Assembly: GCA_026394775.1 (NCBI GenBank)
Contig: JAPLZY010000018.1
Span: forward strand, 1 to 34,868
Source of the DNA: Candidatus Zambryskiibacteriota bacterium
GTDB taxonomy: Bacteria > Patescibacteriota > Minisyncoccia > Phycocordibacterales > DATDWN01
Reading direction: 5' to 3'
DNA length: 34,868 bases
Below, one piece after another: positions 23,054 through 34,868 of this stretch. The notes under the pieces are model-generated. The model was not told the origin of the DNA. It saw only the letters and a list, made by a program, of their open reading frames with translations, and searched no databases. Positions within the stretch are counted from its first letter, which is position 1. The number at the start of each line of letters is the position of its first letter. A program made the translations under genes and the position numbers.

Positions 23054-25729
23054 ATGCCTCCATTCAATCATTTCACAACAAAAGCAAAAGAAGCGATCCG
23101 CAAAGCTCATGAGCTCGCTATTGAACGTGGCCAAAATCACGTAAACCCACTCCATCTCCTTACAGCGCTTATTCTTCAAGACGAAAGCGTAGTTACTTCT
23201 ATACTCGATAAGCTCGAAGTCGATACTATATTGCTCACTGACTCACTTATCGATGAGATTGAGGGAGTAGACGGTGGTCAGACTATCTCACCGTCATATC
23301 AAGTGTATCTCACACCAGAGCTCGCACAGCTCATCGAACTGTCAGCAAAAGTAGCACTGGATTTAAAAGATGAGTTTGTTTCCACAGAACATCTTTTTAT
23401 TTCTGCACTCGAAAGTCCTGGTCCTGCTCGTGACCTGCTTTCTAAATTCAAACTTACTAAAAATCAGGTACTTGAAGTGCTCGAAGATTTGCGTACTGGA
23501 GATAATGAAGATGCGCCTGCAACGAAAAAATTTAAAGCGCTTTCAAAATACACACGAAGTCTCACCAAGCTGGCTCAAGCTAACAAGCTCGACCCCGTGA
23601 TCGGTCGTGATGAAGAGATTTCTCGCGTCATTCAGATTCTTTCTCGTCGAACAAAAAACAATCCTATTCTTATCGGAGAAGCGGGGGTGGGGAAGACTGC
23701 TATTGCCGAAGGTTTGGCTGTCCGAATGCTTCAAGGAGACGTGCCTGAGTCATTGAAAGACAAAGAACTTGTATCACTCGATCTTGGACTTTTGATTGCG
23801 GGTACAAAATACAGAGGTGAGTTTGAAGAACGACTTAAAAATATTTTGAAAGAAATAGAGCGTTCAGATGGAAAGATTATTCTCTTCATTGACGAAATAC
23901 ACACACTCGTGGGAGCGGGTGCTGCCGAAGGTTCAATGGACGCATCAAATATGCTCAAGCCCGCGCTTGCTCGTGGAGAGTTGCGTGCTATTGGAGCAAC
24001 CACACTTCGCGAATATCAAAAATATATTGAAAAAGACCCAGCGCTTACACGTCGTTTTCAGCCTGTACAAGTGAGTGAGCCGTCAATTCCGGATGCGATT
24101 ACAATCATGCGAGGACTCAAAGAAAAATATGAGCTCTATCACGGAGTGCGTATCACCGACGAAGCTATTGTTGCTTCGGTGCATCTTTCTTCTCGTTACA
24201 TCACAGACCGATTTCTTCCTGACAAAGCAGTGGACCTGATCGACGAGTCGGCAGCGTATCTAAAAATCGCTCTTGAAAATATGCCGGTTGTGTTACAGGA
24301 AGCGCATTCAAAGACTATTAAACTAGAAATTGAACGAGAAGCACTCAGAAAAGAAGTGGATGTAAAATCAAAAAACAGACTCAAAGAGATTGAACAAGAA
24401 CTCGCTGACTTAAAAGAAAAGACAGGAGAGATTGAGCTTAAATGGAAAAACGAAAAAGAAACCGTGTCTGGTATCAAAGAGCTTAAAAAAGAACTCGAAG
24501 ACTTGAGACAACAAGCAGATGGGGCAGAAGCGAGGGCAGACCTCTCAAGAGCTGCAGAGATACACTATGGCCTCATTCCTGAAGCTGAGAAAGAGCTTGA
24601 TATGAAAAGTAAGCGTCTCAAGAAACTTCAAAGTTCTCGGAGAATTTTGAAAGAAGAGATTACGGAAAATGATATTGCAATGATTGTGTCTAAGTGGACA
24701 GGTATCCCTGTTTCCCGAATGCTTGAAGAAGAGGCAGAAAAGTTGGTGCGCATGGAAGAAGTATTGAAACGACGCATTGTTGGTCAAAGTGAAGCGGTAC
24801 AAAAGATTTCAGATACGATCAAGCGTTCACGAGCGGGTATTGCTGACCCAAATCGACCAATCGGTTCGTTTCTTTTCCTTGGCCCTACAGGTGTAGGTAA
24901 GACAGAGCTCACCAAAGGTCTGGCTGAGTTTATGTTTGACGACGACAAAGCACTAATCCGTGTTGATATGTCTGAGTTTATGGAAAAACATAGTGTGTCA
25001 AAGCTTGTGGGGGCTCCTCCAGGCTATGTCGGACATGAAGAAGGAGGGACTTTGACTGAAATGGTGCGTCATCGACCATATGCAGTAATACTTTTCGATG
25101 AGATTGAAAAAGCACATCCAGAAGTGTTTAACATCTTGCTTCAGGTTTTGGACAATGGAAAACTGACCGATGCAAAAGGGCGTTCTGTAAACTTTAGAAA
25201 TACGGTGATTATTTTGACTTCAAATATTGGAGCTCAGTATATAGACCGTATGCAAAAACTCGGCTTTGCGTCTGACCCATCTGAAAAAGCAGACTACAAC
25301 GATGCAAAAGCAAAGATAAATGATGCACTTAAAGACTACTTTAGACCAGAATTCCTCAACCGTTTGGATGAAATCATTACATTTGATATTTTGAGCAAAG
25401 AAGCGATCCGAGAGATTGTTGGTATTCAGGTTGGCATTGTGACCAAACGACTTGCTGAAAAAGAAATTCGTCTCGAGCTTACGCCCGATGTATACACACT
25501 TTTGGCAGAAGAAGGGTATAACCCTCAGTACGGCGCACGTCCGCTCAAGCGCCTGATTCAGCAGAAGATCCTAAATCCAATTGCTGCTCTCATGATCAGC
25601 AAGGGGATTGTAAAAGGAGGATCTATCTCGGTGGGCCTCAAAAACAAAGAATTTATGTTTGATGTGAAAAAGCCTCGGAAAGCCTCACTCTCAGAGAGCT
25701 TCGTGGTGAGTGATGGTCTAATTGTTTAA
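23054..25729 (+). CDS. clpB: ClpB-type AAA+ chaperone (Clp/Hsp100)
   Basis: Clp-N repeats, two Walker A sites ([18 protein letters not shown]), shortened M-domain with [17 protein letters not shown]. Confidence 0.9.
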
Positions 25730-25743
25730 ACAAGCTAAAAAAT

Positions 25744-25770
25744 CCCCTGAACCTGGTTCAGGGTTTTTTT
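25744..25770 (+). terminator. Rho-independent terminator
   Basis: ccctgaac ctg gttcaggg then T tract. Confidence 0.85.
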
Positions 25771-25820
25771 ATGCTTTTACTCGAGATAAAAATATGTTAG
25801 AGTCTTAATTGTGAGTATAT

Positions 25821-25903
25821 GCGTCGGTACTCAAGTGGTCAACGAGGGGAGACTGTAAATCTCCTGACCTTGGTCTTCGAAGGTTCGAATCCTTCCCGGC
25901 GCA
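25821..25903 (+). tRNA. tRNA-Tyr(GUA)
   Basis: gcgtcgg/ccggcgc acceptor, CTGTAAA loop, gaagg ttcgaat ccttc T-arm. Confidence 0.93.
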
Positions 25904-26096
25904 CAAAAAGAAAAAACTCCTTATGGGAGTTTTTTCTTTTTGTCGTACGGGAGTAAAGGCGTGTTACGCCTTTACGTAAGGATTCGAAAAGCGGAGCGGG
26001 CACCTAGTCAGCAGACTAGGTCGCGAGCTGCGGACACGAGCAAAATTTTCGACGGAAAATTTTGACTCGCGGAAGAATCCTTCCCGGCGCACAAAA
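25904..26096 (+). repeat. tRNA-linked inverted/direct repeat element, locus A
   Basis: Terminator; degenerate RC of acceptor; 10-bp hairpin 25953-25975; RC of T-arm 25978-25988; core hairpins; 22-bp direct copy of tRNA 3' end 26075-26096. Confidence 0.85.
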
Positions 26097-26149
26097 GAAC
26101 TGCTGAAGAGTGGTTTTTTAAAAAATCTAAACTTTGCTACAATATACCA

Positions 26150-26626
26150 ATGAATAACTACGCATTCATTGATGCTCAAAATGTTCACCTCTCGATCAGA
26201 TCTCAGGGATGGAGTATTGATTGGAAAAGATTCCGTGTATACCTCCAAGAACATTACAATATTACAACTGCCTATCTTTTTCTGGGTTATATTGAAGGAA
26301 ATAACAGCTTGTACGAGAAACTTCAAAAGGCAGGTTTTATTTGTATTTGGAAGCCAGTTTTAAAATATAAAGATGGAACAATAAAAGGTAATGTTGATGC
26401 TGAGATGGTTTTACATACAATGATTCAATTTCCAAATTTTGACAAAGCTCTGATTGTAACTGGTGACGGCGATTTCTATTGTCTTGTCCAATATTTGTTG
26501 CAGCAGAACAAACTTAAAACAGTGTTAGTACCTGATCGAAATAAGTGTTCCGCACTTCTTAAGAAATTTGCCAAGAAAAATATAGCTTTTATGAACGATC
26601 TGAAAAACAAAGTAGGTTTTAGATAA
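26150..26626 (+). CDS. NYN domain (LabA/DUF88-like) putative RNase
   Basis: NNYAFIDAQNVHLSIRSQGWSIDWKRFR ... KGNVDAEMVLHTM ... ALIVTGDGDFYCLVQYLLQQNK. Confidence 0.88.
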   Translation: MNNYAFIDAQNVHLSIRSQGWSIDWKRFRVYLQEHYNITTAYLFLGYIEGNNSLYEKLQKAGFICIWKPVLKYKDGTIKGNVDAEMVLHTMIQFPNFDKALIVTGDGDFYCLVQYLLQQNKLKTVLVPDRNKCSALLKKFAKKNIAFMNDLKNKVGFR

Positions 26627-26627
26627 A

Positions 26628-26665
26628 AAAGGACCCTTGCAGGACGGGCCTGCAAGGGGACTTTT
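26628..26665 (+). terminator. Likely terminator
   Basis: ccttgcagg acggg cctgcaagg with flanking pairs; short T run. Confidence 0.55.
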
Positions 26666-26727
26666 CGTGGTGATGTGTATATCATACGCCCTTAATTATT
26701 AATGTCAAATTTAAATTTTACACACTT

Positions 26728-27381
26728 ATGAAACTCCTTCTTACTTCTGCTGGGCTCACAAACGCTTCAATATCTGATGCATTATTCGAACTGGTCGGTA
26801 AAAAGCCAGAAGATACCTCACTTGTTTTTGTTCCAACAGCTTCTAATAAAGAAGCGGGAGACAAAATTTGGTTGATTGATGATTTGATAAATTTAAAAAA
26901 ACAAAATTTTAAATCAATTGATATTGCTGATATTTCTGCTGTGGATAGAGATATTTGGTTACCTAAGTTTGAACAAGTCGATGTTCTGTATTTTGAAGGA
27001 GGTGATGAATATTATCTTATGAAATGGATGCGTCTTTCGGGACTCGATACTCTTTTACCTGAACTTTTGAAGACTCGAGTGTACGTGGGTGTGAGTGCCG
27101 GAAGCATGGTGACAGGGAAAGATTTAGCGTCTGAGATTTACGCAGTAGTTTATGAAGAAGAATTAAAAAAAGAAATCATAAAAGGTCTTGGTTTTGTGGA
27201 GTTTTATATTATGCCGCACCTCAACTCAGACTACTTTACTAAAGTGAGAGAAGAAAATATCATGGAGGCTGTAAAAGAAATTAAAGATAAAGTGTATGCT
27301 CTGGACGATCAGTCTGCTCTCAAGGTGCTCGATGGTAACATGGAAGTGGTAAGTGAAGGGCAATATTTAGTATTTAACTAA
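26728..27381 (+). CDS. Peptidase S51 / peptidase E-like protein
   Basis: VLYFEGGDEYYLMKWM ... VYVGVSAGSMVTG ... DDQSALKV. Confidence 0.85.
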   Translation: MKLLLTSAGLTNASISDALFELVGKKPEDTSLVFVPTASNKEAGDKIWLIDDLINLKKQNFKSIDIADISAVDRDIWLPKFEQVDVLYFEGGDEYYLMKWMRLSGLDTLLPELLKTRVYVGVSAGSMVTGKDLASEIYAVVYEEELKKEIIKGLGFVEFYIMPHLNSDYFTKVREENIMEAVKEIKDKVYALDDQSALKVLDGNMEVVSEGQYLVFN

Positions 27382-27382
27382 T

Positions 27383-27797
27383 AAAAAAGTCGCCAGAAAC
27401 TGGCGACAGGGGGAGTGTGAGTAGAGTAGAGAATGGCATAATATACGATTCGCATAAGAACAAAATAATCTTATTCTTACTATCCCTTCGTATATTGATA
27501 ATTTAGGATTTGTGTCCCAGCCTATGCATAACATAGCTTCGTCTCGGTTCGACACTATGGGCTGGTCTGCCCGAGGGTTTCTTGTCCCTTGTTGCGTAGT
27601 AGACCTATTCCCGCACTAAAGAGATAGGTTGGAGTAACCTACAACTCTAATGCTCAATTCGAGTGGCCTCTCGCAACATCCTAAATTCTCATCTCCTGTA
27701 CTCACACGCCTCATCACTGAGGTCTTTTTAGAATCAGGCTGCTCATTGCAGACTTACTCATGCAATGAGATGTTCGCGACCGGCGCGTACAAGACTC
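27383..27797 (-). ncRNA. Structured ~415-nt RNA of unknown family
   Basis: Minus-strand promoter TTGACA-17-TATAAG (27805-27833), terminator gtcgccag ttt ctggcgac TTTTTT, long-range helices. Confidence 0.65.
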
Positions 27798-27804
27798 TTG
27801 TTTA

Positions 27805-27833
27805 CTTATACACTATTTTAAACTAAATGTCAA
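27805..27833 (-). promoter_or_regulatory. Promoter of the 27383-27797 ncRNA
   Basis: TTGACA, 17-bp spacer, TATAAG on minus strand. Confidence 0.75.
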
Positions 27834-27884
27834 AAAGAATCATAAGGTCAAGCTTTTTCTTTACCTTTTTGGTATAGTGTCCTC

Positions 27885-29078
27885 ATGAAAGACAAAGAAA
27901 TCTCACGACTTTTAGGGCTTGAAAAAGCTCGGCAGAAAAAAGTAATCAATCTCATTGCGTCTGAAAATTATGTTTCTTCAGATGTGCGGTTTACGTTGGC
28001 TTCTGAGTTTGTAAACAAGTATGCAGAAGGCTATCCCGGTAAAAGATACTATGGAGGTAATGAATATGTAGATGAACTTGAAACACTCTGCATGAACCGA
28101 GCACGAAGTGTGTTTGGACTATCAGAAAGCGAATGGGGAGTAAATGTACAGGCACTCTCAGGTTCGCCTGCAAACGTGGCAGTGTATACCGCGCTTGTGC
28201 CGTATAGAGAAAAGATAATGGGGCTTTCTCTGGATCATGGTGGACATCTTACTCATGGACACGCTGTCTCTGTAACGGGAAAGTGGTGGAAGCAAATACC
28301 TTTTTTCGTAGACCTAGTCACAGAGAGACTTCATTATGAGGCTATCAGGCAGATCGCTCTGAAAGAAAAACCGGCGTTGATAGTGGTTGGTTTTACTGCA
28401 TACTCTCGGGTTGTCGATTGGAAAAAAATACGTGAAATTGCAACAGAAGTCGGAGCTCTGATGCATGTCGACATGTCGCATCTAGCAGGGCTCGTAGCAG
28501 GCGGTGTGTATCCGAGTCCTTTTGCATATGCTGATACGGTTATGACAACCACCCACAAGACTCTCCGAGGTCCTCGCAGCGCCCTTATCTTTTCACGAAA
28601 AGATGAAAGAAAATTAAATGAAAAAATAGATAAAGCAGTGTTCCCAGGGCTTCAAGGTGGTCCGCATATAAACCAGATCGCAGCTGTGGCTGTGGCCCTC
28701 CAGGAGGCCCTGGAGCCTTTTTTTAAATCGTATGCTAAACAAGTGATCCGTAATGCAGAAATACTTGCAAAAGAGCTCTCTTCTCTCGGGTGGCGTATCG
28801 TATCGGGAGGCACGGACAGTCATCTTTTTTTGTTGGATACCTGGCGTGAAGGTAAAGGTATTTCTGGTGGAGAGGCAAGTGATGTGCTCGAAAAAGCGGG
28901 GATTATTGTAAACAAAAACACTATACCGGGGGATACCCGAAGTCCGAAAGATCCGTCGGGAATACGAATAGGGGCTGCGGCGGAAACGACTCGGGGAAAA
29001 AAAGAGAAAGATATGAAGATAATTGCTCGAAAGATAGATGAGGCGCTGAAGAAGGCTATGGCAAGCAAAAACGCTTAG
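27885..29078 (+). CDS. glyA: Serine hydroxymethyltransferase
   Basis: INLIASENYVS ... EGYPGKRYYGG ... TTTHKTLRGPRSALI. Confidence 0.97.
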   Translation: MKDKEISRLLGLEKARQKKVINLIASENYVSSDVRFTLASEFVNKYAEGYPGKRYYGGNEYVDELETLCMNRARSVFGLSESEWGVNVQALSGSPANVAVYTALVPYREKIMGLSLDHGGHLTHGHAVSVTGKWWKQIPFFVDLVTERLHYEAIRQIALKEKPALIVVGFTAYSRVVDWKKIREIATEVGALMHVDMSHLAGLVAGGVYPSPFAYADTVMTTTHKTLRGPRSALIFSRKDERKLNEKIDKAVFPGLQGGPHINQIAAVAVALQEALEPFFKSYAKQVIRNAEILAKELSSLGWRIVSGGTDSHLFLLDTWREGKGISGGEASDVLEKAGIIVNKNTIPGDTRSPKDPSGIRIGAAAETTRGKKEKDMKIIARKIDEALKKAMASKNA

Positions 29079-29128
29079 GATTTGCCTTTTTTGCCCTTTT
29101 TATGCTACCATAGGGGCTACTTAAATAT

Positions 29129-29284
29129 ATGTCACAAGATCGATTAATCCCACTTCGAAATAAAGAGACCGACGAGGTATACTGGACTTCTAAAAACAAG
29201 AAGCTTGTAGAACGCAAAATCGAGCTCAAGAAATACAGTAAAAAGCTTCGGAAACGAATAACTTTCAAAGAGACTAAGAAATAA
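29129..29284 (+). CDS. rpmG: Ribosomal protein L33-like
   Basis: MSQDRLIPLRNKETDEVYWTSKNKKLVERKIELKKYSKKLRKRITFKETKK; absent from ORF track. Confidence 0.8.
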   Translation: MSQDRLIPLRNKETDEVYWTSKNKKLVERKIELKKYSKKLRKRITFKETKK

Positions 29285-29295
29285 TTTCTAACAAA

Positions 29296-29321
29296 AATTC
29301 GCCAAAAGGGCGTTTTTTTGT
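29296..29321 (+). terminator. Rho-independent terminator
   Basis: cgcc aaaa gggcg then T7. Confidence 0.7.
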
Positions 29322-29337
29322 TACTCTATTTATTATC

Positions 29338-29408
29338 GGGTGGTTAGTTAAGTGGTATAACAGCGCACTCCAAACGCGCTATTGGGGGTTCGATTCCTCC
29401 ACCGCCCG
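29338..29408 (+). tRNA. tRNA-Trp(CCA)
   Basis: gggtggt/accgccc acceptor, CTCCAAA loop, discriminator G. Confidence 0.9.
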
Positions 29409-29410
29409 CA

Positions 29411-29561
29411 GTAAGGTGAGTAAAAGCCTGTTAGGCTTTTACATGAGGAATCGAAAGACGGAGCGGGCACCTAGTCAGCAGACTAGGTCGCGAGTCCGGG
29501 TAGGGAAAATTTTTGAGTGTCGACGAAAAAATTATTCCTTACCGATTCTTCCATCTCCCCC
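29411..29561 (+). repeat. tRNA-linked inverted/direct repeat element, locus B
   Basis: 10-bp hairpin 29420-29442, RC of T-arm gaggaatcga 29445-29454, core shared with locus A, degenerate direct copy 29544-29561. Confidence 0.75.
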
Positions 29562-29580
29562 AAATAACATGTAAACCAAC

Positions 29581-29949
29581 ATGGAATCTAAATCAGCAAA
29601 AAGAGATAACGAACCGCTCTGGGAATATTGTAAAAATGAAGCGGTCATGAAAATGGGTAAATTTTCGGCCCGTGCTATGCAGTATGCGGTAAAAATATAT
29701 AAGGAACGTGGTGGCGGATATATAGGAGAAAAGTCTTCCAAAAATAGTCTCGTAAAATGGACAAAAGAAGATTGGGGATATACAGGTAAGCCTGGAGAAA
29801 GTCGTTATTTACCTAAAAAAGCACGAGGACATTTAACTGTTGGTGAAAAGATTGCGACAAATCGAGCAAAAAATAAAGGAACAAAAGAGGGTAAACAGTG
29901 GGTCAAACAGCCAGAACGTATTGCAAAAAAGACAGCTAAAGACAGCTAA
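29581..29949 (+). CDS. DUF5872-like hypothetical protein
   Basis: WEYCKNEAVMKMGKFSARAMQYAVKIYKERGGGYIG...; resemblance from memory. Confidence 0.55.
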   Translation: MESKSAKRDNEPLWEYCKNEAVMKMGKFSARAMQYAVKIYKERGGGYIGEKSSKNSLVKWTKEDWGYTGKPGESRYLPKKARGHLTVGEKIATNRAKNKGTKEGKQWVKQPERIAKKTAKDS

Positions 29950-30017
29950 AGATAGGTTGAAGTAATAAATTAAAAAACAAATCCGCCTCCCTCGGATTGT
30001 TTCCGTGGTGGCGGGGG

Positions 30018-30125
30018 TTAGGTTAGCTCTTCTTTCTTGGCTTTTTCATCACAGAACTCACAAGTGTGTTCTGTGGTAACGACAAAGCCTTGTCCGCACT
30101 CTTTACATACTTCTGGGTAGGGCAT
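30018..30125 (-). CDS. Small zinc-ribbon-like protein (35 aa)
   Basis: MPYPEVCKECGQGFVVTTEHTCEFCDEKAKKEELT, CxxC...CxxC; absent from ORF track. Confidence 0.55.
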   Translation of the reverse strand: MPYPEVCKECGQGFVVTTEHTCEFCDEKAKKEELT

Positions 30126-30171
30126 CTAAATACAATTTAAACACATATATATACTTTAATACAAGTCATGA

Positions 30172-31434
30172 CTAGACCAGTATCTTCTCCATTTTCAGCC
30201 CTCGGGATCCTTTTAAAAGAAATGTAAAACCTGAAAAATTTTGCTGGTCAAACCAGATTTTCGCTTCATCGCTCGTTTCAAACCATTTAAAATCACCGGA
30301 GATATCAGCTAGTGCTTTTTTAAAAAAAATGCCGATGAATATGCGAGTCGTAAGGGGAGCGCTGAGTACATATTCAACTATTTTTTTATGCTCGTCGTCC
30401 GCATACTCTCCAAGCTCTAGCATGTCGCCCAGAATAACTCCTTTTTGAGAAGCTGCAGAAGTTAGAAAACTATCAAGAGAAAGCTTCATACTTGTCGGGT
30501 TTGCGTTGTAGCAATCGACAATGAAATCAATATTATCTTTTTGAATAAATTGTGAGCGTCGTGAACTTGGAGCGTAGTTGCATACTGCATCGAGTGCATC
30601 TTCTTTCTTCACACCAAAATACTGTCCGATCGATACGGCCAGTTCGACATTTTCTAGGTTGTAGTTTCCGATCATTTGAGTGGTGTATTTTTTGTCGTCA
30701 TACGAAAAAGAAAGGAATGTTCCTGGCACAGTGGCAAGAGTATATTCAGGGTACAAAATTCGTTCAATTCCTGTAGAGTCTTCAATCAAGTCAGGATGAT
30801 TTTTGTGCACAAAAGTCTTTGCATTATTTTCCTTTGCCCAGTCGTAAATCTCTTTGTTGGCAAGTCGACTTCCGAGAGGTGAGCCAAAGCCTTCGAGGTG
30901 GTCCATGCCGTTGTTGGTCACCACTACATGAGTTGGGTTTAATATTTCTAAAAGATCGAGGTGTTCTTTCGGATGGTTTGCTCCTATTTCAAAAATTCCT
31001 ATTTCTGTATCTTGAGGCATTGAAAAAAGAGTGAGAGGTACGCCAATATGGTTATTGAGACTTCCTTCTGTGGCGTGCACTTTGTACTTACTTTTAAGCG
31101 CTTCTTTGAGTAGTTCTTTACTTGTGGTTTTTCCGTTTGATCCACCGAGTGCTATAAGAGGAATATTAAAAAGTGCACGATATGCAGTCGAAGCTTTCTG
31201 TAGGGCCGTAAGTACACTGTCCACTACATATACATGTTCGCCCGCTTTGCTTTTGTTTTCTGTAACCACTGCAACAGCACCTTTCGCTAAGGCATCCTCG
31301 ATAAAAGCGCTCCCATCAAAGTTCTCACCAGTTAATGCAAAATAGACAGATCCTGCAACATCTTTGCGAGTGTCTGTTGAGATACTGTAATTATTTCCCT
31401 CAAGTTCTTTGAGTATAATGTCTATAGTATTCAT
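30172..31434 (-). CDS. murF: UDP-N-acetylmuramoyl-tripeptide--D-alanyl-D-alanine ligase
   Basis: STDTRKDVAGSVYFALTGENFDGSAF ... GGSNGKTTSKELL ... CYNANPTSMKLSL. Confidence 0.9.
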   Translation of the reverse strand: MNTIDIILKELEGNNYSISTDTRKDVAGSVYFALTGENFDGSAFIEDALAKGAVAVVTENKSKAGEHVYVVDSVLTALQKASTAYRALFNIPLIALGGSNGKTTSKELLKEALKSKYKVHATEGSLNNHIGVPLTLFSMPQDTEIGIFEIGANHPKEHLDLLEILNPTHVVVTNNGMDHLEGFGSPLGSRLANKEIYDWAKENNAKTFVHKNHPDLIEDSTGIERILYPEYTLATVPGTFLSFSYDDKKYTTQMIGNYNLENVELAVSIGQYFGVKKEDALDAVCNYAPSSRRSQFIQKDNIDFIVDCYNANPTSMKLSLDSFLTSAASQKGVILGDMLELGEYADDEHKKIVEYVLSAPLTTRIFIGIFFKKALADISGDFKWFETSDEAKIWFDQQNFSGFTFLLKGSRGLKMEKILV

Positions 31435-32111
31435 AAGGTATTTTTTTCAGCAGCAGCTTTATCCTCAAAAGAGTTTATTGGAAGCCATTTTTGCATCACT
31501 ACCGCTGTAATAGGAAAAATGTCTTTTTGTGCGAGTAGTGTTTGGGGTAAACCGTATTCTCCGTCGCGAAGCTGTACCGCAGGAGCATCAAAGATGTGCG
31601 TATCCACTACATATGAGCCTGTTGCAACAAATGACCCGTTTACTTTTTCGATGTCATTTTGAGGATAAAAACCTTCGATATTTCCCATAGGGTCAATATG
31701 AATACTGTGATACCCAGGCATGAGCCTTTTTTGTAGACCGAAAGCTCTAGAATGAACGAGATGTATTTCTAGTTCTTTTTTATCATAAATATCATCGCCA
31801 TTGAGTACAAGAAATTTCTCTCCCGGATAAAGCAGGTCTTTGGCTGAGAGTAATGCACCAAAAGTGCCACGCATGCTTATTTGATCAACATAAGAAACTT
31901 TTCTGTTCTGAAAAAAATCTCCCACATGTGCTTTGATTTTCTCTTTGAGATGTTCTACAACAATAATCACTTCATCGATTTCATCGGGAAGGGAAGTAAA
32001 AAGACGGTCTATGATCGGTAGGTTGTTGATGGGAATAAGTGGTTTGGGGATAGTGTGGGTCAGTGGCTGCAGACGATTACCTTTTCCACCGGCAAGTATA
32101 ATAGCTTTCAT
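31431..32111 (-). CDS. Sugar-1-phosphate nucleotidyltransferase
   Basis: MKAIILAGGKGNRLQPLTHTIPKPLIPI. Confidence 0.92.
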   Translation of the reverse strand: MKAIILAGGKGNRLQPLTHTIPKPLIPINNLPIIDRLFTSLPDEIDEVIIVVEHLKEKIKAHVGDFFQNRKVSYVDQISMRGTFGALLSAKDLLYPGEKFLVLNGDDIYDKKELEIHLVHSRAFGLQKRLMPGYHSIHIDPMGNIEGFYPQNDIEKVNGSFVATGSYVVDTHIFDAPAVQLRDGEYGLPQTLLAQKDIFPITAVVMQKWLPINSFEDKAAAEKNTL

Positions 32112-32174
32112 CTCCTTATCGTATTTGTTTCTTGTATTTTTGGCAAGGAAAAAGGGAGCTCTGACGAGCTCCCG

Positions 32175-32651
32175 CTAGATTGTAAGAACACCAAGAGCTC
32201 CTGCGTCAAATACAATGGGTTCGTAAAGGTATCTCTCAACTACCGGTGTATCTAAGCCCTGCAAGCACATCATGTGCATGATAATCATACGCAGATATCC
32301 GGTTCCAAATTTATCTTTTTTGTGAAGGCAGAAGATTTCTTCAAAGCTCATAAATCGAGCATCAGATATCTCGCCAGGTAGATTTATCGCCAAGTTACCT
32401 TTAAAATTAAAGGTCTTATAGAGGTTGACTGATTCTTTGTTTCTCCTGGTACATATAGCGATCAGAGTTAACTGATTTTTATCTAGCTCAAGATCTGTTT
32501 CTTCTCTTGTCTCGCGTATAACTGCGTCAACAGGTTCTTCCTCTGCCTCAATCCCACCTCCAGGAAGTCCCCAGAGTCTTGATCCATAGTTGTGAAGTAC
32601 AACTAGTGTGTTTTCGTAAGGATCTTGAATAACTGCGTTTGCTCCATTCAT
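32175..32651 (-). CDS. NUDIX hydrolase
   Basis: GGGIEAEEEPVDAVIRETREETDL, Nudix box. Confidence 0.9.
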   Translation of the reverse strand: MNGANAVIQDPYENTLVVLHNYGSRLWGLPGGGIEAEEEPVDAVIRETREETDLELDKNQLTLIAICTRRNKESVNLYKTFNFKGNLAINLPGEISDARFMSFEEIFCLHKKDKFGTGYLRMIIMHMMCLQGLDTPVVERYLYEPIVFDAGALGVLTI

Positions 32652-32693
32652 TGCACTCTCCTTATTTCACCTTAGCATATGTCATAAAGAGAA

Positions 32694-33653
32694 TCAAAAT
32701 AGTTTTTGTTTCAGGTGTTTTTTTATTGTTGCTTTCTTTTCCCCATCAAACCATTCAATCCTCTTATCTCTTTTAAACCACTGCATCTGCCGGCGGGCGT
32801 ACTGTACGTTTCCAAGTTCTATTTGTTCAGCCAATTCTTTTTTAGAAATCTTCTTTTGTAAATACAAAGCGAGGTATCGATATTCGAGCCCGAGTGCTTC
32901 CATGCGTTTGTATGAGAGGCCGCTTGCGTGCAGTCTTTGTGCTTCTGCAAGCATTCCTTTTTTCATACGTGAGAGGAGGCGGGCGTGTATTTTTTCTCGC
33001 AATATTTCAGGTAGTAAAGTAAGTCCGATTTGAATAAATTCATATTGGCTTTTCACTTTTTTTACTTTTGGTACGGTACCAAGTGTTTGAGCAATCTCAA
33101 TAGCACGGATCAGTCGAACTGGATTTTTCGCATCAATATTTTTTGCACGTTTTGGATCGAGTTTTTTAAGCATTAGGAAAAGCTCGTCGGTACTTTTCAA
33201 AGAAAGCTTTTTTCGTAGTTTCAGGTCTGCAGGGACGTCAGGTAAGGTAATGTTGTCGACGATAGATTGAATGTAAAAACCAGTTCCTCCACAAATGATA
33301 GGAAGTTTTCCTCGAGAGAGTATGTCTTTGATTGCAGCTTCAGTATACTTTTTCCAGAGCTCAACACTAAAGACTTTTTTAGGATTCATCACGTCGAGCA
33401 GATGATGAGGAACACCCCGCATTTCTTTTTTTGTAATTTTCCCTGTACCAATATCAAGTCCTGTGTAGACTTGTCGTGAATCAGCAGAAATAACCTCGCC
33501 TAAAACAGGCGATTTTGAAGTAGATTCGCCTGTTCGGCCGAACGTGGGAATACCACGTTTTAGGCCCGTTATGCTGAGAGCTATTTCAACTGCTAGATCG
33601 GACTTACCGACTGCAGTGGGACCGAGGATCACTAAAACTTTTGGTTTAGACAT
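32694..33653 (-). CDS. miaA: tRNA dimethylallyltransferase with palindromic insert
   Basis: VILGPTAVGKSDLAVEIA ... ISADSRQVYTGLDIGTGK ... GGTGFYIQS. Confidence 0.94.
   Translation of the reverse strand: MSKPKVLVILGPTAVGKSDLAVEIALSITGLKRGIPTFGRTGESTSKSPVLGEVISADSRQVYTGLDIGTGKITKKEMRGVPHHLLDVMNPKKVFSVELWKKYTEAAIKDILSRGKLPIICGGTGFYIQSIVDNITLPDVPADLKLRKKLSLKSTDELFLMLKKLDPKRAKNIDAKNPVRLIRAIEIAQTLGTVPKVKKVKSQYEFIQIGLTLLPEILREKIHARLLSRMKKGMLAEAQRLHASGLSYKRMEALGLEYRYLALYLQKKISKKELAEQIELGNVQYARRQMQWFKRDKRIEWFDGEKKATIKKHLKQKLF
33498..33565 (-). repeat. In-frame palindromic coding insert in miaA
   Basis: gcctaaaac ... gttttaggc termini with inner hairpins aacaggcga/tcgcctgtt and aacgtgg/ccacgtt around cggccg. 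Confidence 0.8.
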
Positions 33654-33860
33654 TTGAGTGTAAAAAAACCATTCATGTGCAGGGTCCGGTGAGGCGTTCG
33701 CGTGTCACTACTTGCCACCCTGCACATAAACGGCTAGCGATCCGTTTGTTTCAAGGCATGCCATCCCTGACGGAAGTCAATTAACGAGTGTTTATCGACA
33801 TGTGCCCATATTAGTCCAAAATTGATTTTTTGTCTAAATTACAGTATTGTTTTGTGTATT

Positions 33861-33942
33861 GCCGAGGTGATGAAATTGGTAACCATGCAGCACTCAAAAT
33901 GCTGTGTCGCAAGACTTGAGGGTTCGAGTCCCTCCCTCGGCA
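33861..33942 (+). tRNA. tRNA-Leu(CAA)
   Basis: gccgagg/cctcggc acceptor, CTCAAAA loop, long variable arm. Confidence 0.93.
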
Positions 33943-34157
33943 CAAATTAAAAGATCCCTTCGGGGATTTTTTTATTTGTGCTGAGGAGCAATGCAAAGCA
34001 TTGCGTGAGGGACTCGAACGGATTATCGGTTTACGAGCACAGCAGTGCTTGTCGATAATCCGGTGACCAGAAATTTTTAATTCGACGGAATTGAAAATTT
34101 CGAGGTCGAGACTCCCTCCCTCGGCACAAATTAAAAGATCCCTTCGGGGATTTTTTT
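33943..34157 (+). repeat. tRNA-linked inverted/direct repeat element, locus C
   Basis: Terminator, RC acceptor atttgtgctgagg, hairpin gcaatgc aaa gcattgc, RC T-arm gagggactcgaac, core hairpins, 45-bp direct repeat 33929-33973 = 34113-34157. Confidence 0.9.
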
Positions 34158-34190
34158 CGTGTAAGGAAGTGGTGGTATAATTAAACGATA

Positions 34191-34730
34191 ATGCAAAGAA
34201 TTGTCAGTACTGACAAAAAACTCCGTGCGTATATTATAGGCCTCGCTTTAGATAACGGTAATCTTTCCAATTCTAATGGAAGAGCAGTAAGGTTAAGAAT
34301 TACGTGTGATAAAAAATATCCTGAGCTTTATCTTCATGTTCAGGAGTCATTAAAAAAACTTCTACCTAACAATATTGTTTCCTTAGTGGATCGTCCTAAT
34401 GAGGGGTGTCTTGATGTAAGTTGTTACTCCAATTCGCTAGAAGATATCTTAGGTTGGAAAGCAAAGGGTGGTTCAAAGTACAATCAGGATGTAAAAATTC
34501 CCAACTGGATTCTGGAAGATCAAGATTTTACTAAAGAATGTTTAAGAGGATTGGTTCAAACAGACGGGTGTATATACACAGATAGGGGATATTTAATGGT
34601 AAATATTACAAGTTCAATTACTCCTCTTGCAGAAAATATTATCACTGCAATTAAAAAACATTGGTTATAAACCTACTGTATGTAAGATACAAGAAAGAGA
34701 AAAAGAAAGACATGCCATTCGAATTTCTAA
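34191..34730 (+). pseudogene. LAGLIDADG homing endonuclease-like gene, frameshifted and truncated by an IS
   Basis: AYIIGLALDNGNLS and CLRGLVQTDGCIY; ORF ends 34670 but +1 frame continues KNIGYKPTVCKIQEREKERHAIRISK up to IS end at 34731. Confidence 0.7.
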
Positions 34731-34868
34731 GAGCCTGTTCACAATCTTTTTGATATAATACCCAGCATACTAGCCCTTTAATATATGAGGTATGCGAAAA
34801 ACATATCCGAGTGATATCACTCGGGAGCAATTTGAAACAATACGACCGATACTGGAATTAGTCAGGAA
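34731..34868 (+). mobile_element. IS5-family insertion sequence, left end; transposase start at 34792 (partial)
   Basis: MRKTYPSDITREQFETIRPILELVR at 34792; left end gagcctgttcacaatctttttg preceded by ctaa. Confidence 0.75.

Follow-up and report, generated by a model that had tools for sequence, protein, structure and literature searches.

The DNA stretch analyzed here (the window) comprises 34,868 nt, positions 1 to 34,868 of contig JAPLZY010000018.1 from the 753-kb genome of a Candidatus Zambryskiibacteriota bacterium (Patescibacteria; assembly GCA_026394775.1), referred to below as G000. Its genes for tRNA-Tyr(GUA), tRNA-Trp(CCA), and tRNA-Leu(CAA) are each followed by a short element of common layout (elements A, B, and C, respectively; Table 1). 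After the tRNA come, in order, a terminator (A and C only), an inverted copy of the acceptor 3' strand (acc'), a small hairpin (hp0), an inverted copy of T-loop and T-stem (T'), a core of two further hairpins (hp1 and hp2), and a direct copy of the tRNA (X) that starts at T-loop position 57. Our preferred reading, held with moderate confidence, is that A, B, and C belong to an undescribed family of gene-less mobile elements (approximately 150–230 nt) whose insertion site in Patescibacteria is the 3' domain of tRNA or transfer-messenger RNA (tmRNA) genes and which fold as a tRNA-sense single strand.

A previous, sequence-only reading of the window had described three like elements behind these tRNA genes, with a terminator in A and C. 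All three lie where it placed them and belong to one family, their folds are more stable than those of dinucleotide shuffles (z = -7.5 for A, -6.1 for B, and -11.6 for C; 0/200 shuffles as stable), and no terminator precedes B. Other parts of that description hold less generally. The inverted acceptor copy is present, and short in B as described, but even the pristine copy C, with its perfect T', has an imperfect one. The AGCA loop ascribed to hp1 is not universal: across the family, this loop is mostly A(G/C/A)(C/T)A. The direct copy of the tRNA from the T-loop to the 3' end is exact in A (18/18 positions), decayed in B, and altered in C by an ‘AC’ insertion and by continuing into a second copy of the terminator, with which it forms a 48-nt repeat. 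T' of B is perfect despite the decay of the X of the same element.

In all three elements, hp0 sits approximately at the acceptor/T-stem boundary of the inverted copy, and in A the terminator palindrome runs on into the acceptor 3' strand and acc'. In core C, hp1 consists of 10 bp, a 4-nt 5' bulge (GTTT), 8 bp, and the AGCA loop, and is joined by a linker to hp2, which has 14 bp and a GACG loop. Family-wide, the hp2 loop is CGACGG, UGACGA, or a relative of these (GNCG-like tetraloop).

Table 1. Positions of the three host tRNA genes and of the parts of elements A, B, and C in the window; R1 and R2 are the covariance models defined in the following section.
Feature	Position	Strand	Description	Basis
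tRNA-Tyr(GUA)	25821..25904	+	host of element A	ARAGORN; Rfam RF00005
Terminator-like hairpin	25905..25941	+	AAAAACTCC ttat GGGAGTTTTTT; between tRNA-Tyr and element A	sequence; whole-transcript fold
acc' of A	25942..25952	+	imperfect reverse complement of tRNA-Tyr acceptor 3' strand	sequence, fold
hp0 of A	25953..25975	+	perfect stem, GTT loop	fold
T' of A	25977..25988	+	reverse complement of tRNA-Tyr T-loop/T-stem	arm comparison with tRNA
Core of A	25989..26072	+	hp1 (AGCA loop), hp2 (CGACGG loop)	R2 match
X of A	26075..26092	+	tRNA-Tyr positions 57–73 and one trailer base, 18/18 identical	sequence comparison
tRNA-Trp(CCA)	29338..29409	+	host of element B; no terminator before element	ARAGORN; Rfam
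acc' of B	29413..29420	+	short remnant	sequence, fold
hp0 of B	29420..29442	+		fold
T' of B	29445..29455	+	GAGGAATCGAA, reverse complement of tRNA-Trp TTCGATTCCTC	sequence comparison
Core of B	29459..29540	+	hp1, hp2	R1 26.1 bits; R2 59.9 bits
X of B	29543..29561	+	decayed direct copy of tRNA-Trp 3' part	sequence
tRNA-Leu(CAA)	33861..33943	+	host of element C	ARAGORN; Rfam
Terminator-like hairpin	33944..33974	+	3' of tRNA-Leu	sequence; second copy at 34128–34158
acc' of C	33975..33986	+	reverse complement of tRNA-Leu acceptor 3' strand, mismatched	sequence, fold
hp0 of C	33988..34004	+		fold
T' of C	34007..34018	+	GAGGGACTCGAA, perfect reverse complement of tRNA-Leu TTCGAGTCCCTC	sequence comparison
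Core of C	34019..34105	+		member of model R1
X of C	34108..34127	+	tRNA-Leu from position 57, 2-nt ‘AC’ inserted in T-loop portion	sequence comparison
Second terminator copy	34128..34158	+	tRNA-Leu terminator	X and terminator form 48-nt direct repeat of copy at tRNA

Directly after element C, at 34191–34670, lies a LAGLIDADG-like open reading frame (Pfam E 7.8e-4, under the curated cut-off). Apparently the same reading frame is found in genome G003 (locus L133), directly behind tRNA-Leu(CAA) with no element between.

Distribution and association with tRNA genes

All genomes compared are draft metagenome-assembled genomes, and the E-values of the covariance models are rough. Model R1 rests on the 87-nt core of four copies, T' and X being left out, and model R2 on 78 R1 hits. 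The family is larger than the three elements first noticed. BLAST with element C found further copies in its own genome behind tRNA-Ser(ACT) and tRNA-Ala, plus one close to tRNA-Phe on the other strand, and R1 matched 16 of 41 genomes searched, G000 included. With R2, copies were found in all 17 family genomes (15 model hits in G000) and in 100 of the 247 genomes of the order, a count judged by bit score with a sample of loci read by eye; under a stricter threshold and coarser first-look filters, 9 of 380 genomes drawn across the phylum, G000 among them, had matches. Core A scores 49.6 bits (E 5.7e-9) with R2, and was not listed among the R1 hits used to train that model.

The sequence-only reading had linked the core to tRNA genes, and a covariance search bears this out: 91 of the 129 distinct copies read start within 100 nt 3' of a same-strand tRNA and none behind a tRNA on the opposite strand, where approximately 0.3% of hits would be expected by chance to fall within 100 nt 3' of a same-strand tRNA. 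Several of the remaining copies stand second or third in tandem arrays (L039, L109, L121) or lie at contig ends, and others follow tmRNA genes (L063, L129), the T' of L129 matching the tmRNA T-loop. Copies also stand behind tRNAs that ARAGORN misses because they are apparently interrupted by a group I intron (L050, L119, and L085; L098 by reading). The phylum scan added 13 further hits, 10 of them behind a tRNA and with other orders and families represented; T' matches at 9–10 of 10 positions in seven of these 10 and at 8 of 10 in one, while one is an acceptor-tip element (see below) and one is without a full T'. One well-preserved core in G000 (L004, C2) lies beside tRNA-Phe on the opposite strand and has a T' that fits a tRNA not found on that contig; it is possibly an orphan left by a rearrangement.

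That the family is undescribed is concluded from the Rfam and literature searches together with general knowledge. An Rfam scan of window positions 25000–34868 at E<=1 returned the tRNAs and two far sub-threshold miRNA matches and left the elements unmatched, in agreement with the sequence-only reading, and scans of further loci gave matches to tmRNA, tRNA, and group I introns only, none of them at elements. Among the open-licence papers searched, none describes a family with this layout, and we know of no named one. An exact-pattern search of viral contigs gave no match and so no sign of carriage by phages.

Fold of the core and fidelity of the arms

The core fold is under selection. In a 78-row alignment, which was fitted to the model and thus somewhat favors the structure, all 34 modeled core pairs show double changes, and the margins over shuffled and slid alignments are large: double-changed cells number 756 versus 221 in shuffles, the covariation score is 0.80 versus 0.20, and 92.7% of cells pair, compared to 59% in shuffles and 39–47% with slid partners. 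G·U pairs outnumber A·C pairs five to one (106 versus 21), which indicates that the functional strand is the tRNA-sense strand, either as RNA or as single-stranded DNA. A kissing interaction between the loops of hp0 (often CTGC) and hp1 (AGCA) was considered and dropped, the two loops not being associated across copies.

T' is an 11-nt arm directly 5' of the core, the reverse complement of positions 54–64 of the local tRNA. The sequence-only reading had seen that the arms are specific to each local tRNA, and the rest of the family agrees: among 72 elements of T-loop geometry (a set from which a few elements with non-matching T', such as L051, fall out), T' matches the host tRNA at 94–100% per position over 54–63, at 81% at position 64, and at 51% at position 65, and is perfect over 54–63 in 63. 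Even unusual T-loops are mirrored by T' (TGCAATTCCC in L119, GTCAGCACCC in L098, and the tmRNA's TTCAATTCCC in L129). GAG recurrently replaces TCG inside T' (L013, L027, L111, L150), as if a second version of this part of the loop were accepted.

The other arms are less faithful, X matching the tRNA at 78–94% over positions 61–72 and acc' at 72–90%. At positions 61–63, mismatches number 4/216 in T' and 27/204 in X (Fisher p = 6.5e-6), a contrast tilted somewhat toward T' by the unequal minimum scores with which the two arms were placed by best match. Compensatory change between T' and X as the sole reason for the arms was rejected: only a handful of cells fit (e.g. in L016 and L002), so that T' follows the tRNA rather than X. 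Quasi-palindrome correction as the cause of T' fidelity is likewise disfavored, acc' being nearer to the hairpin center and yet less faithful, though the lower fidelity of acc' could also come from selection against its pairing with the tRNA. The retention of T' suggests that the unit of T' and core still reads the tRNA, as a guide or as an antisense arm.

Arms and cores also come in other combinations. In a second geometry (L113, L116, L121, L131), the arms match the acceptor tip and trailer; in examples of both geometries read by eye, the first base of X falls 3 nt inside the end of the inverted arm. Similar arms flank a second, unrelated core type (L012, L018, and L134, the last behind a tRNA-Leu of G002), which has a stem ACCTGT../..ACAGGTGTAC, then a hairpin with a TGTAA loop, and then X.

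Movement between loci and alternative readings

Orthologous tRNA loci, whose comparison had been proposed along with the sequence-only reading, have the element present, decayed, absent, or with a different core. The relatives compared include Candidatus Zambryskibacteria RIFOXYD1_FULL_40_13 (G009), Parcubacteria bacterium C7867-006 (G002), and UBA910 (G001). Behind tRNA-Leu(CAA), G000 has the element, G001 an hp2 remnant, G002 another core, and G003 and G009 no element. Behind tRNA-Trp, the element is present in G000 and absent from G002, G003, and G009. Behind tRNA-Tyr, G000 and G001 have different core types, G003 has a remnant, and G002 and G009 have none. Conversely, non-homologous sites share cores: those behind tRNA-Ala and tRNA-Lys of one genome are 94% identical, and those behind tRNA-Tyr and tRNA-Val in two genomes are 91% identical. 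In 12 of 104 cases, the closest core in another genome has the same host tRNA (4.3% expected by chance), a weak vertical signal over much exchange.

A like unit is thus present or absent at orthologous sites and recurs at non-homologous ones, as is characteristic of mobile elements; together with core replacement, this supports our reading of the elements as mobile. The 48-nt repeat in C is what would be expected of a recent duplication of the target that ran from position 57 to the end of the terminator. The sequence-only reading had already put forward a mobile element that targets the T-loop and has its arms regenerated from the target. The three refutation tests proposed with it, on the link of cores to tRNAs, on the fit of arms to the local tRNA elsewhere, and on Rfam matches, did not overturn it. 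Mobility gains from the locus comparisons, but the acceptor-tip geometry and the existence of a second core type, whose arms are similar, show that ‘T-loop-targeted’ covers only part of the picture.

Insertion may proceed as follows. The core would be joined to both strands of a tRNA gene broken at the T-loop, giving X'-core-X, which would then be rejoined to an intact copy of the tRNA at or near the downstream hairpin. Both arms would be rewritten from the target at each insertion, and T' would be retained as a short guide that brings the RNA or single-stranded DNA of the element to the T-loop. In the examples read by eye, the breakpoint apparently lies 3 nt away from the end of T' that faces the core, in the T-loop as in the acceptor-tip geometry. 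The upstream tRNA remains whole, since the direct copy after the core starts at position 57. The catalyst would act in trans or be the element RNA itself. More specifically, and only tentatively, the elements may be RNA-guided homing elements: a gene-less RNA of approximately 100 nt with an 11-nt 5' guide, T', would read the T-arm of a tRNA gene and insert its information by means of a host or other enzyme or its own catalysis, the guide being rewritten by each new target.

Several observations weigh against mobility or this scheme. Movement is read from genome comparison, and no transposition event was observed. The hairpin hp0 lies inside the region expected to be copied from the target, and a simple strand-copy model leaves it unexplained. 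A T-run, probably a terminator, separates tRNA and core in 55 of 90 loci, so that transcription of the element is not assured. Some loci (e.g. L051) have a T' that mismatches the present tRNA, and T' retention could serve a cellular function rather than mobility. The search for common neighbors recovered ordinary syntenic genes only and no partner gene; one large neighbor cluster mixes in reading frames translated from the elements themselves. Two nearly complete genomes with 13 copies (G005) and four copies (G002) encode neither reverse transcriptase nor Y1 transposase. TnpB is absent by profile from all 17 family genomes, the model being positive in six control genomes; the IscB profile likewise matched none of the 17, a weak result given that this model was silent in every control genome.

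Reverse transcriptase, Y1 transposase, IscB, and TnpB were accordingly set aside as the enzyme acting in trans, their presence not tracking the elements. Reverse transcriptase (RVT_1) occurs in 10 of the 17 family genomes and is absent from G005, G002, G006, G007, G012, G015, and G016, all of which have copies; Y1 transposase occurs in 12 of the 17 and is absent from G005, G002, and G008 (all at 98% completeness), which have 13, 4, and 17 copies, respectively.

A function in the cell is the substance of one rival explanation, by which the element would act in cis on the upstream tRNA as an RNA switch or antisense control: T' would invade the T-arm in a read-through transcript, the core would be the sensor, and X would be a deliberately weaker competing partner of T'. 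T' is indeed held to the tRNA while X is weaker, with a 2-nt bulge in many copies; the folded strand is of tRNA sense, and elements always lie on the tRNA strand. Moreover, in the minimum-free-energy fold computed for each whole transcript (A, B, and C), T' is paired to the upstream tRNA, and the 5' acceptor strand of that tRNA to the distal X. The tRNA would, however, fold first during transcription, which counts against this predicted pairing as a switch or an intron-like role. We consider such control unlikely: the element is not conserved at orthologous tRNAs, stands behind any tRNA and tmRNA, comes with several core types and in tandem arrays, is often preceded by the T-run, and in many copies has a decayed X next to a persisting T' and core. 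The decoy switch envisaged in the sequence-only reading, in which the inverted arm pairs with either the tRNA or its distal copy, agrees with the computed pairing to the tRNA. It loses ground because orthologous tRNAs do not consistently have the element and because T' has kept its match to the tRNA where the distal copy has decayed.

The elements could instead be by-products of replication. A nascent strand would fold back at the palindromic T-arm and terminator, copy X into X', and switch by TCGAA microhomology to another core and back, with cores persisting as good template-switch sites and no dedicated machinery being involved. The near-continuous palindrome of X, terminator, and X', the extension of the direct repeat in C through the terminator, the palindromic T-loop TTCGAA, and the failure to find a common partner gene all fit this account. 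Strong covariation and the G·U asymmetry, though, imply selection on a folded single strand, a neutral process does not predict that T' is kept better than acc' and X, and particular core families are common to several genera; we therefore judge this explanation improbable. At one locus (L104, tRNA-Gly), the element is followed by a 70-nt perfect direct repeat of X, hairpin, acc', and half of hp0, ending near the hp0 loop, which looks like a template-switch or truncation product. Least credible, in our view, are scars of tyrosine recombinases, with T-arm-targeting integrated elements bounded by attL (the X at the tRNA) and attR (the distal X). Integrases that target tRNAs usually have as attB the stretch from the T-loop to the 3' end, which is directly repeated here, and the unit begins within the tRNA, which it restores. 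Yet between the repeats there is neither integrase nor cargo, the tRNA-specific inverted arm T' is left unexplained, the repeat in C is 48 nt long and runs through the terminator, and similar cores stand behind different tRNAs, which is impossible for a fixed att core.

Comparison with known systems

Rickettsia and Wolbachia palindromic elements (RPEs and WPEs) are short repeats that lack genes, form hairpins, and spread in a reduced genome, and the elements described here are likewise short, gene-less, and hairpin-forming. RPEs have a fixed sequence and are best known inside genes; the elements here, set apart by this description, target the tRNA/tmRNA 3' domain with arms that match each host tRNA, and they reside in another host lineage. 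Repetitive extragenic palindromes and bacterial interspersed mosaic elements (REP/BIME), mobilized by the Y1 transposase RAYT, are also small, structured, single-strand hairpins presumably moved in trans, and Y1 is found in 12 of the 17 family genomes; they lack tRNA targeting and target-derived arms, however, and genomes with many of the present elements are without Y1. Integron attC sites resemble the elements in conserving fold rather than sequence, in bulged helix bases, and in recombining as a folded single strand. The absence of a cassette gene and the host-specific inverted tRNA arm distinguish, by description, the elements from attC.

Among guide RNAs, the IscB omegaRNA (HEARO) and other RNAs with a 5' guide share the order of guide and scaffold, a guide derived from the insertion site, and, apparently, the position of the breakpoint, 3 nt from the end of the guide next to the scaffold. 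The elements differ in having no adjacent nuclease gene and no Rfam match, and in their genomes being unmatched by IscB and TnpB (17 family genomes; IscB control silent). T' does match the host tRNA, but it has 11 nt as opposed to approximately 16–20 nt in IscB omegaRNA/TnpB guides, and the biochemistry differs as well. Group I introns are likewise tied to tRNA genes, as RNAs whose short guide is complementary to the exon, and some host tRNAs here carry one. The element, in contrast, lies outside the coding part of the tRNA, which is whole without splicing; in the loci scanned, group I intron models matched none of the elements and found true introns in neighboring tRNAs. T-box riboswitches are cis RNAs that read a tRNA, but the present elements lie downstream of tRNA genes and pair with the T-arm rather than with the anticodon or NCCA end.

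If the mobile reading is true, a large group of minimal bacteria has, at its tRNA and tmRNA genes, previously unrecognized mini-elements that have no gene of their own and whose targeting arm is rewritten with each move. This would bear on how streamlined genomes acquire repeats, on tRNA 3' ends as insertion hot spots, and on whether there are guide-plus-scaffold RNAs beyond the known CRISPR, OMEGA, group I/II, and bridge-RNA systems. Should T' instead regulate the tRNA, the elements would represent a new kind of tRNA-linked RNA switch. For either reading, a working covariance model and specific loci are at hand for testing.

Elsewhere in the window, between the genes for an S51 peptidase and SHMT, approximately 430 nt (27400–27850) are without a long open reading frame and have no Rfam match at E<=1; with its many short inverted repeats, this region could be a divergent structured RNA.

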